DNA of 37,503 bases, taken from positions 1 to 37,503 of the IMG/VR virus record IMGVR_UViG_3300035204_000666; one strand, given 5' to 3'. Shown piece after piece: positions 1,803 to 37,503 of the stretch; positions within the stretch are counted from its first letter, which is position 1; each line of letters opens with the position of its first letter. The DNA is from a virus. The notes under the pieces were generated by a model. It had not been told where the DNA came from and made no database searches. It saw only the letters and a program-made list of their open reading frames with translations. Position numbers and translations under genes: made by a program.

Positions 1803-1832
1803 TTGACAGGTTTCTGCTCACTGTAGTATATA
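1803..1832 (+). promoter_or_regulatory. Main rightward early promoter
   Basis: Consensus TTGACA (1803-1808), an 18-bp spacer, and TATATA (1827-1832), followed closely by the first early gene with a GGAGG site at 1842-1846. The -10 context TGTAGTATATAACT is repeated exactly at the promoter at 36635-36664, which also has TTGACA at the same distance. Confidence 0.75.
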
Positions 1833-8647: not shown

Positions 8648-8828
8648 TGTCGAGTTGCTTAAAAGAAACATTGTGGAAGAGATGGGTGAACGCCCGTGTG
8701 TTAATGATAATTGGTGGGATAGGGTTAGGGGTAGTCTTATTGACATTTCACTCCACCATGAACCAGTGGTATTCAACCAGATATGGCAGACAGTAGACTT
8801 ATGGTTTTTATCTGATGGTAGATTATAA
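8586..8828 (+). CDS. Unknown 80-aa basic protein
   Basis: Begins MRSKRKEYPRVRRLTRAEKD, seven bases after GGAGGT, so it is likely translated even though it overlaps the nuclease gene by 62 bp in another frame. The N-terminus is strongly basic; the rest contains NDNWWDRVRGSLIDIS and QIWQTVDLWFLS, tryptophan-rich helices. Possibly nucleic-acid-binding. No family recognised. Confidence 0.55.
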   Translation: MRSKRKEYPRVRRLTRAEKDDVELLKRNIVEEMGERPCVNDNWWDRVRGSLIDISLHHEPVVFNQIWQTVDLWFLSDGRL

Positions 8829-9201
8829 GGAAGATAAGCCCAGAGATTTCTACAGGCAGCTTCTGGATACGAATATGATTATTGATATGGGATGGGCCTC
8901 CTTTCAGATAACCCTAAAGGACAACCTCGTCGATGATGATGGGGACAAGTGTTATGGTTGGGTTGATTTCAGTGCTAGGGTTATGGGGCTGGAAAGGAAT
9001 ATGCCCGATGCCTTGGCTAGGGAGACATTTTCACACGAGATGTGGCATATCCTTCTGGAGACAGTCGGCTATGGTGATGACTTATTTGATGGTAAAATCA
9101 TAACAAATAATGAGCATCTCACAGAAGCAATAAATAAAGTTGTAGCTATATTCAAACGATTAAATCCAAGATTATACAGGCTATTATTTTGGTGTCACTA
9201 G
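8815..9201 (+). CDS. Small zinc metallopeptidase-like protein (HExxH)
   Basis: 128 aa, last gene of the early arm. LARETFSHEMWHILLETVGY contains HEMWH (residues 74-78), the zinc-binding helix of gluzincin-like peptidases, and the downstream EHLTEAINKVVAIFKRLN fits the helix that supplies the third ligand or closes the fold in small phage proteins of this sort. The substrate is unknown; ImmA/IrrE-like repressor cleavage is one possibility. It overlaps the previous gene by 14 bp. Its stop codon shares the CTAG at 9198-9201 with the stop of the convergent amidase gene. Confidence 0.6.
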   Translation: MVDYKEDKPRDFYRQLLDTNMIIDMGWASFQITLKDNLVDDDGDKCYGWVDFSARVMGLERNMPDALARETFSHEMWHILLETVGYGDDLFDGKIITNNEHLTEAINKVVAIFKRLNPRLYRLLFWCH

Positions 9202-35895: not shown

Positions 35896-36115
35896 AATTT
35901 CCTAGTCCCGGCAATTCTGACTCATCCTCCGCCTTGAAATAAGACACATTAGACATAGGTACAACCACCGTCTGATGCTTTGAGTGGATAAGAACAAAGC
36001 TATTAACTAACTTTATATAGCTTACATCTCTTGTGCGTTCTTTGCAAAAGAAACTCTTAACTTCACCATTGGGAAGTCTACAGGCATCAATGGTTTTCAC
36101 ACATGATAGTATCAT
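35831..36115 (-). CDS. Unknown 94-aa protein overlapping its downstream neighbour
   Basis: Starts MILSCVKTIDACRLPNGEVK with GGAGGAG before the ATG, and overlaps the GNAT-like gene at ATGA. Its last 22 codons (basic: KKAKERHGHK) overlap the next gene by 65 bp in another frame. The middle (VSYIKLVNSFVLIHSKHQTV) looks like a small beta sheet. No family recognised. A dual-coding 3' end is likely. Confidence 0.6.
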   Translation of the reverse strand: MILSCVKTIDACRLPNGEVKSFFCKERTRDVSYIKLVNSFVLIHSKHQTVVVPMSNVSYFKAEDESELPGLGNYGKEGTPQKASKKAKERHGHK

Positions 36116-36591
36116 ATTTTCTCCTCCTTGTTTATCCTCTCTTCCAAATTACCCGGCATAGGTATTTTGTGCAATATGTAGGGGTTATAAACAACCTGTC
36201 TGCCATACACCTTAAAAGCCTTGCCCCTGAAATAGTGTGACGCAATTATATCCCCCCCTTTGCTCCATCCATACTCCTCAAGCAGAAGCGTGGCTATACC
36301 CATACGCCTATAAGGCTGCTTCACATATACGAAGTGAACCAGCGGCACCTCATGCGTTTCAGCGCACATCCAGCCATAGATATGGGAGGCATCCTCCACA
36401 CTACACGCTACCTTGATAAGGGCGGCCTTAGTCAGGTAATTTAGAATCACTCTGTGGCCGGTGAAATATACGTGTGGAGGAATGCCCTGAGAAAAGGCGC
36501 TACCATAGTGCTGTTTGAGCCAGCTATTATAAACCAAGTTTATATCGCTAGGGACAGAATCCCTAACTATGATAGGTAATTCTTCTTTCAC
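36112..36591 (-). CDS. GNAT-like acyltransferase
   Basis: 159 aa. Residues about 86-105 (VHFVYVKQPYRRMGIATLLL) match GNAT motif A, the acetyl-CoA pyrophosphate loop (R-x-x-G-x-A). The N-terminal (IIVRDSVPSDINLVYNSWL) also fits the family start. Start is a GTG (36591) overlapping the stop of the possible ORF before it (GTGA); no good ribosome site. A GNAT in the packaging block may modify a virion or host protein; the substrate is unknown. Confidence 0.75.
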   Translation of the reverse strand: MKEELPIIVRDSVPSDINLVYNSWLKQHYGSAFSQGIPPHVYFTGHRVILNYLTKAALIKVACSVEDASHIYGWMCAETHEVPLVHFVYVKQPYRRMGIATLLLEEYGWSKGGDIIASHYFRGKAFKVYGRQVVYNPYILHKIPMPGNLEERINKEEKI

Positions 36592-36938
36592 TTGTCTGGC
36601 TTATTTTTTTCTTTAAAAAAAGTCCTAAAAGGTATTGACACGATATTTAGCAATGTAGTATATAACTTATATAGGCCGTTGAGGCTTGAGTCCAAGAGGG
36701 GGCGGAGGTGGACGAGAAGTGGCAGCTTCGATGTGAGGCTGTACTTGCTGTGTCGTCGCCCTTCGGGCTCCGAGACTCGTCCCTTCGGGACTCGTCCCAC
36801 CGAGGAGGTAGCAGCACCGGGGGGTGGTAGATACTCCGAGGCCGTGGAGGAACACGAGGCCCAGTAGTCCTCTGCATTCCTGTGCCGGTTATTCCATACG
36901 CCGCTATATACGTTGTTACCCTTAGATGGTTTCTTCAT
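36588..36938 (-). CDS. Doubtful 116-aa ORF over the structured region
   Basis: An open frame from ATG 36938 (MKKPSKGNNVYSGVWNNRHR) to TGA 36588, overlapping the stop of the Gln-rich gene and touching the GNAT gene by GTGA. The junctions resemble real couplings and would explain how the GNAT gene is translated. Against it: no ribosome-binding site, a middle part encoded by GC-rich hairpins with repeated GRVPKGR/SEPEGRR-like content, and a strong opposite-strand promoter. It may be a real gene, or the frame may be open by chance over a structured RNA. Confidence 0.3.
   Translation of the reverse strand: MKKPSKGNNVYSGVWNNRHRNAEDYWASCSSTASEYLPPPGAATSSVGRVPKGRVSEPEGRRHSKYSLTSKLPLLVHLRPLLDSSLNGLYKLYTTLLNIVSIPFRTFFKEKNKPDK
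36635..36664 (+). promoter_or_regulatory. Strong rightward promoter antisense to the late operon
   Basis: Consensus TTGACA (36635-36640), 18-bp spacer, TATATA (36659-36664). It is the same design as the main early promoter at 1803-1832, sharing TGTAGTATATAACT. No late gene is transcribed in this direction. Transcripts would start near 36670, right before the structured region. Confidence 0.7.
36670..36890 (+). ncRNA. Candidate structured noncoding RNA (four-helix junction)
   Basis: Folding by eye gives P1: 36707-36716 with 36791-36801 (GGTGGACGAG with CTCGTCCCACC, 10 bp, one bulge). Inside are P2: 36717-36726 with 36738-36746 (AAGT/ACTT plus CAGC/GCTG); P3: GCCC-TTC-GGGC (36758-36768); P4: TCCC-TTC-GGGA (36780-36790). 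P2 and P4 abut P1 without linkers, and the two linkers around P3 are 11 nt each, a compact junction. A 5' hairpin (CTTG-AGTC-CAAG, 36685-36696) and a 3' hairpin (GAGG/CCTC and GGAA/TTCC, about 36849-36880) flank it. It is preceded by a strong promoter on the same strand. No terminator is obvious, so the 3' end is unknown. Confidence 0.45.
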
Positions 36939-37206
36939 TGGCAACTATCGATGGCACTGGTAATTCTCCTGCTGATTCACCCGGTTGAGGTGCCTGCAAC
37001 TGTGTAACTACGTTAAGCGCGACATCTAGGCCCTTAATCTGCATGTCAACGTTATCAAGCTGCTCCTTGAGTACATCCATCTGAAACGTCAGGTGGCCTC
37101 TTCGGGCGCATAACTCGCCATACTTGTTATTGATTGTCTCCGCTTCGGGGGACTGCTGCTGTTGTGGTTGTTGCTGTTGTGGTTGTTGCTGTTGTGCATC
37201 TGCCAT
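36922..37206 (-). CDS. Gln-rich coiled-coil protein, first late gene
   Basis: 94 aa from ATG 37206, seven bases after AAGGAG. MADA is followed by three QQQQP units, encoded by a 15-bp tandem repeat (about 37150-37199), then a coiled coil (LTFQMDVLKEQLDNVDMQIK) and a Pro/Ser-rich tail. A longer upstream reading crosses a terminator and is not credible. Leading the late operon, it may be a small packaging or head-assembly factor. The repeat makes copy number likely to vary between relatives. Confidence 0.65.
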   Translation of the reverse strand: MADAQQQQPQQQQPQQQQSPEAETINNKYGELCARRGHLTFQMDVLKEQLDNVDMQIKGLDVALNVVTQLQAPQPGESAGELPVPSIVANEETI

Positions 37207-37218
37207 TTTAAAACTCCT

Positions 37219-37245
37219 TAAAAAATTGAGGCACTTTTTAGTGCC
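37219..37245 (-). terminator. Terminator-like hairpin just before the first late gene
   Basis: On the minus strand GGCACT and AGTGCC pair perfectly around AAAA (37230-37245), followed by TCAATTTTTT: a textbook intrinsic terminator. It lies directly upstream of the AAGGAG (37214-37219) of the Gln-rich gene, so leftward transcripts from the right would stop here unless antiterminated. It may act as an attenuator. Confidence 0.7.
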
Positions 37246-37378: not shown

Positions 37379-37503
37379 AAGGACTGAAGACTCTCTCTTT
37401 TATATAACAAAAAGAAGACAAAAGGACTGAAGACACTGATACTACTACTAATAAAGACAAAGGACTAAAGCCTATTGCCATTAATAAAGATAAAGGACTA
37501 AAG
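37379..37503. repeat. Four GGACTRAAG direct repeats at the right edge
   Basis: GGACTGAAG at 37381 and 37424, GGACTAAAG at 37462 and 37495; spacings 43, 38 and 33 bp, shrinking by five each time. The last two sit in a longer shared unit (TAATAAAGAYAAAGGACTAAAG on the plus strand, split here as TAATAAAGA and AAAGGACTAAAG). They resemble in style the short CCTAAAG repeats beside the T7 terminal repeat, so they may mark a genome end, or be binding sites for a late activator. The array may continue past the window. Confidence 0.6.

Follow-up and report, generated by a model that had tools for sequence, protein, structure and literature searches.

A conserved, predicted sigma-70-type promoter facing the late genes, followed by a G-rich leader, in an uncultured phage group

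The DNA analyzed here, a single 37.5-kb IMG/VR virus record (IMGVR_UViG_3300035204_000666; "the window"), carries between two late genes what its sequence marks as a strong promoter of the sigma-70 type, on the plus strand and opposite to those genes. It is conserved in position and orientation, resembles the promoter of the early genes, and is followed by non-coding G-rich sequence. We give slightly better than even odds (about 0.55) to the interpretation that the element is an early promoter fired by the host polymerase, with a G-rich leader, and that it combines the role of an early leader with interference against late genes. A backward-pointing promoter within the packaging and structural block would thus probably make an early transcript against late genes; we infer transcription at this promoter, as well as its timing, its extent, and the effect of the transcript. 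The result is a concrete proposal for an early-late switch in an uncultured phage group that has no close relative among the isolates searched, and an example of a single strong promoter that kept its position and orientation as the genes around it were exchanged.

The window is an incomplete contig, and both of its ends are near the studied region. Late genes (portal, head, and TerL with terminase domains) occupy the minus strand from position 37206 down to 9198, and early genes, including those for a PD-(D/E)XK nuclease and an AAA protein related to Sak4-like recombinases, occupy the plus strand from about 1840. The studied gap of ~330 nt is flanked by the minus-strand genes for a 94-aa protein and a GNAT-like acetyltransferase (Table 1), and its G+C content reaches 65%, compared with 47.6% for the window. 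Several other features of this neighborhood were observed. A terminator-like hairpin with a T-run (37230-37245, minus strand) immediately precedes the 94-aa gene on the late strand and is a possible attenuator. Repeats of the types AAGGACTGAAGAC and AAAGGACTAAAG at 37379-37503, the right contig end, likely mark an assembly break. An HExxH metallopeptidase-like gene (8815-9201, plus strand) belongs to the early region here, and its counterparts in the relatives termed group B below (L009:998-1393 and L014:1942-2343; 39% identity) are in the late operon, adjoining GNAT.

Table 1. Features in and around the studied gap and related features elsewhere in the window
Feature	Position	Strand	Basis or remark
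-35 hexamer TTGACA of the antisense promoter	36635-36640	+	Exact consensus; invariant in 10 relatives
-10 hexamer TATATA, 18-nt spacer	36659-36664	+	Alternative TAGTAT at 36656-36661, 15-nt spacer
14-mer TGTAGTATATAACT	36654-36667	+	Also exact in the early promoter at 1803, with equal spacing from TTGACA
Similar promoter immediately ahead of the first early gene (ATG 1852, GGAGGTAGG)	1803-1832	+	Sequence
5' leader predicted for the transcript, beginning at about 36670-36674	36672-36706	+	Promoter spacing and folding
GAGGGGGC-G-GAGGTGG, probable counterpart of the relatives' invariant GAGGCGGCnnnGAGGTGG	36696-36711	+	1 mismatch of 15
Originally predicted P1-P4 core	36707-36801	+	Forms only if folded without the leader; no homologue in relatives
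118-aa open frame, judged non-coding	36588-36944	-	-0.105 bits per codon; no Pfam or PHROG match
GNAT-like acetyltransferase gene	36112-36591	-	PHROG acetyltransferase match and alignment; conserved neighbor; promoter 44 nt upstream on the opposite strand
94-aa late gene, upstream of the gap	36922-37206	-	tblastn against group A relatives, 53-60% identity
Beginning of a homologue of the relatives' 133-139-aa late gene, running off the contig end	3-260	-	tblastn against L079, 39%, E 2e-7

The original prediction had described a consensus promoter upstream of a proposed RNA on the strand antisense to the late operon, and both of these points hold. The pattern TTGACA-N14-20-TATATA occurs at only two sites in the 37.5-kb window (36635 and 1803), both with an 18-nt spacer, where no such site is expected by chance. 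The likeness of the two promoters in the shared 14-mer is partly generic, because unrelated viral contigs often contain TTGACA-N15-TGTAGTATATAA: a search for kin with the exact form of the promoter returned at least 118 viral stretches, and the 80 that were read had no similarity to nine window proteins. Exactly 15 nt separate TTGACA from TGTAGTATATAA in 65 of these 80 stretches, and the 13-nt distance common to the window's two promoters was seen in none of them. When the region was compared with isolate phages by blastn, it was mainly the promoter stretch that matched, in Staphylococcus phages. Many of the TTGACA-N15-TGTAGTATATAA copies (in contigs such as L183, L184, L191, and L201) are then followed by CTACAC, and the GTGTAG...CTACAC inverted repeat in such viral contigs resembles an operator over a promoter.

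Relatives with the same neighborhood were obtained from TerL- and GNAT-based alignments. With TerL alone as the query no relative was found, and hence no close one that covers TerL, and no TerL relatives were found in bacterial and archaeal genomes. The major head protein as the query returned one contig at 97% (L008), which ends before the studied region, plus phages at 39-55%. The ten loci of group A (L023, L027, L029, L030, L031, L034, L037, L064, L066, and L079, the last found by GNAT) have TerL proteins 64-67% identical to that of the window, where read; their sequences are mutually related, so these loci do not amount to ten independent observations. In group A the gap consists of a late gene of 133-139 aa and then ~100 nt before GNAT, and in the window a homologue of this late gene is found at the left end of the contig instead. 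Beside the GNAT start and antisense to the late genes, TTGACA is invariant in group A and the TATATATATAAATA box is nearly so; flanks and promoter spacers vary between subgroups.

TTGACA-N15-20-TATAWA is present in 6 of 15 whole related records, each time only at this site, always on this strand, just upstream of the GNAT gene and ahead of an invariant leader motif (described below), and the reversed-pattern control gave 0 in the 15 records. Sites of the looser form TTGACA-N15-19-TAnnnT are scattered in the relatives at about the control frequency. In group B, two contigs (L026 and L033) carry TTGACA-N17-TATATA in the corresponding position, and L012 has TTGACG. These group B sites fall, when read by eye, inside a small open frame on the late strand, and their sequence could be explained by a gene for a small basic protein around them. 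Such a protein (...RYRIYNIY...) is, also as read by eye, apparently encoded just before GNAT in L012, L026, L033, and L014, and the end of its gene overlaps the GNAT start. Candidate hairpins adjoining GNAT in group B were rejected, as they appear on reading by eye to be this late-strand gene.

How such a promoter might act can be outlined from its position. The host RNA polymerase would start transcription here early, as it would at the similar promoter before the first early gene, and the transcript would head away from GNAT and TerL, toward the first genes of the late operon. In two relatives, G004 and G006, it would continue toward the early operon further along the same strand. The transcript would act as an early leader, and collision or antisense pairing would hold down the first late genes; what was originally proposed as an RNA would be the leader of this early antisense transcript. 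Along the 5.5 kb after the promoter in G006, no other site has at least 10 of 12 matches, and no other near-consensus site was found in two stretches scanned between the promoter and the early genes of G004; at least ~1.4 kb lies between the leader motif and the early genes of G006. Against this mechanism, G005 has other promoter-like sites closer to its early genes, and in G004, where promoter and early genes are at opposite contig ends, continuity is assumed. In the window itself the role of early leader is less needed, because the early operon is preceded by a promoter of its own at 1803, with late-orientation genes (1-1322) in between. The stretch between that block and the early genes is repeat-rich at 1440-1776, with GTAAA repeats and others of the GTCAATATTCTGACGT type; the relatives carry unrelated repeats upstream of their homologue of the 94-aa gene, and several contigs stop near there.

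Downstream of the group A promoter, the motif CGCTnnGGCGGCnnnGAGGkGG is invariant in all ten loci. A scan of 2.9 million viral contigs for it returned 16 stretches, 11 of them being the group A clade and the other five coming from unrelated GC-rich contigs without a match to window proteins. The GAGGGGGC-G-GAGGTGG stretch of the window is likely, as judged from its sequence, to be a degenerate homologue of this leader motif: in a targeted test, its motif score was equaled by 0 of 2,000 shuffles of the region and by no other of ~2,270 genome windows. Searching with a sequence profile built from the group A element gave no match in the window. The relatives' leaders gave no sign of a conserved fold (z -1.5 to +1.1, no covariation), and their sole invariant hairpin has 3 bp that never vary.

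These properties of the leader bear on three other explanations. The leader could work in cis on the nascent early transcript as an antitermination or attenuation element, in the way of lambda nut or HK022 put sites, and would allow polymerase to pass through the repeats and the late genes that oppose it; the invariant motif directly after the promoter and the distance to the early genes in G006 fit this, but the tiny hairpin without covariation and the degenerate window copy missed by the profile make it unlikely. We regard as rather unlikely the related idea that the G-rich leader is an unrecognized phage RNA control element of the nascent early transcript, for antitermination or for silencing of late genes, which is conserved in primary sequence among divergent uncultured phages and of which the window's hairpins are an elaborated form. 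Alternatively, the G-rich repeats (GAGGyGG, at 9-11-bp spacing) might be a DNA site for a regulator or packaging enzyme, the promoter being incidental or its target. Direct repeats about one helical turn apart, adjoining the 133-139-aa late gene where a small terminase could be, would suit such a site; however, the -35, the -10, and their strand are conserved too and the 139-aa protein has no small-terminase match, and we think this quite unlikely.

The original prediction read the gap as a candidate undescribed structured RNA with a compact fold of four helices. As letters, the helices are present: P1 pairs GGTGGACGAG (36707-36716) with CTCGTCC(C)ACC (36791-36801), leaving one bulged C, and P2 (36717-36746), P3 (36758-36768), and P4 (36779-36791) lie within this span, with CUUCGG loops in P3 and P4. 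The core 36706-36804, which was chosen after the fact and by eye, folds alone at -46.3 kcal/mol with z -3.2 (1 of 300 shuffles). This is not very unusual, because 5% of the 99-nt windows of this genome, counting both strands, have z -2.2 or lower. The complementary strand of the core likewise folds to some degree, as predicted (z -2.4). The full interval 36670-36890 folds no better than its shuffles (z -0.2 on both strands). When folding starts at 36672, P2 keeps a probability of 1.0, and P1 and P4 have a probability of ~0.02 for 3' ends at 36804-36890 and of 0.11-0.13 for 3' ends at 36950 or later. Leader bases 36688-36705 (GAGTCC at 36688-36693, then a G-rich stretch) pair with the strand required by P1 and P4; because the leader takes this strand, the transcript is not predicted to adopt the P1-P4 architecture. 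The results on codon usage, shuffles, and pairing probability reported here come from custom scripts and test only what is stated.

Searches for relatives of the fold agree with this outcome. No Rfam family matched the window at gathering score, in keeping with the original statement that no known family is recognized, and matches with E up to 10 were at chance level. The exact pattern of the P3/P4 stretch was found in no viral contig searched. No homologue of P1-P4 was found in the relatives, and a covariation test of these helices has no material, because the relatives have the 133-139-aa gene at that place. Nor is a discrete RNA of about the length of 36670-36890 indicated, because no intrinsic terminator was found on the plus strand of the region. 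The P1-P4 fold beside the promoter is not conserved in the relatives and probably does not form in the transcript, and its hairpins would be lineage-specific GC-rich filler rather than a conserved RNA. More generally, an attractive multi-helix fold can disappear when the likely 5' end is added.

Two readings of the gap as a functional unit of its own can be set against these results. A discrete trans-acting structured RNA, folded as P1-P4 or alternatively with the leader and made from its own promoter, would account for the promoter sequence upstream, the stable core with its two CUUCGG hairpins, and the raised GC of a non-coding gap; the loss of P1 and P4 with the leader, the shuffle-like interval, and the missing homologue, terminator, and family make it very unlikely. 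A minus-strand gene for a 118-aa protein, overlapping the ends of both neighbors as late genes do, has in its favor that the frame spans the gap and that its stop overlaps the GTG start of GNAT, as is often seen among the translated late genes. We tested this with the codon usage of 28 window genes, scored in 357-nt segments, a test that a foreign gene could escape. Real frames scored 0.044 to 0.326 bits per codon and other frames at most -0.019; since all six frames of 36588-36944 score in the non-coding range (-0.105 to -0.518), no frame in the gap looks coding, and with no family match either, this gene is highly improbable. The option of an antisense RNA, raised originally among others, fared better: a plus-strand transcript driven by this promoter is likely on the evidence of a promoter kept in place and strand and resembling the early promoter.

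Our preferred explanation, an early antisense promoter with a G-rich leader, shares features with three kinds of known phage elements. The lambda nut and HK022 put sites are cis-acting antitermination leaders directly downstream of early promoters in lambdoid phages. The element here is likewise a sequence directly 3' of a predicted early promoter, but it has no conserved two-hairpin structure and no boxA-like match was established. The original prediction invited comparison with the phi29 pRNA, which serves the p16 motor in phi29-like phages and has been described as exclusive to that group (PMC11476376). The studied element would similarly be non-coding, promoter driven, and a few genes from the packaging gene. 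However, the window encodes an ordinary TerL with terminase nuclease-domain matches (Terminase_6C, Terminase_3, and Terminase_6N) and no phi29-like p16 packaging ATPase, and it has no Rfam match at gathering score, so a packaging RNA of this type is not supported. Nearest in arrangement are the phage antisense transcripts: the lambda aQ RNA, made from paQ, lowers Q and late expression, and OOP and P22 sar are further examples (PMC12197685, PMC2327240, PMC2629481). In contrast to these, no target gene is overlapped within the non-coding gap of the window (in the relatives the promoter points at the 3' end of the 133-139-aa gene), CII-like control is not known for this phage, and a role in lysogeny is not evident. 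Whereas their targets are Q, cII, or ant, the promoter described here faces the head of the structural-gene operon. Like them, it appears from sequence and conservation to be a dedicated promoter on the strand opposite phage genes, and it would have the potential to delay late functions.
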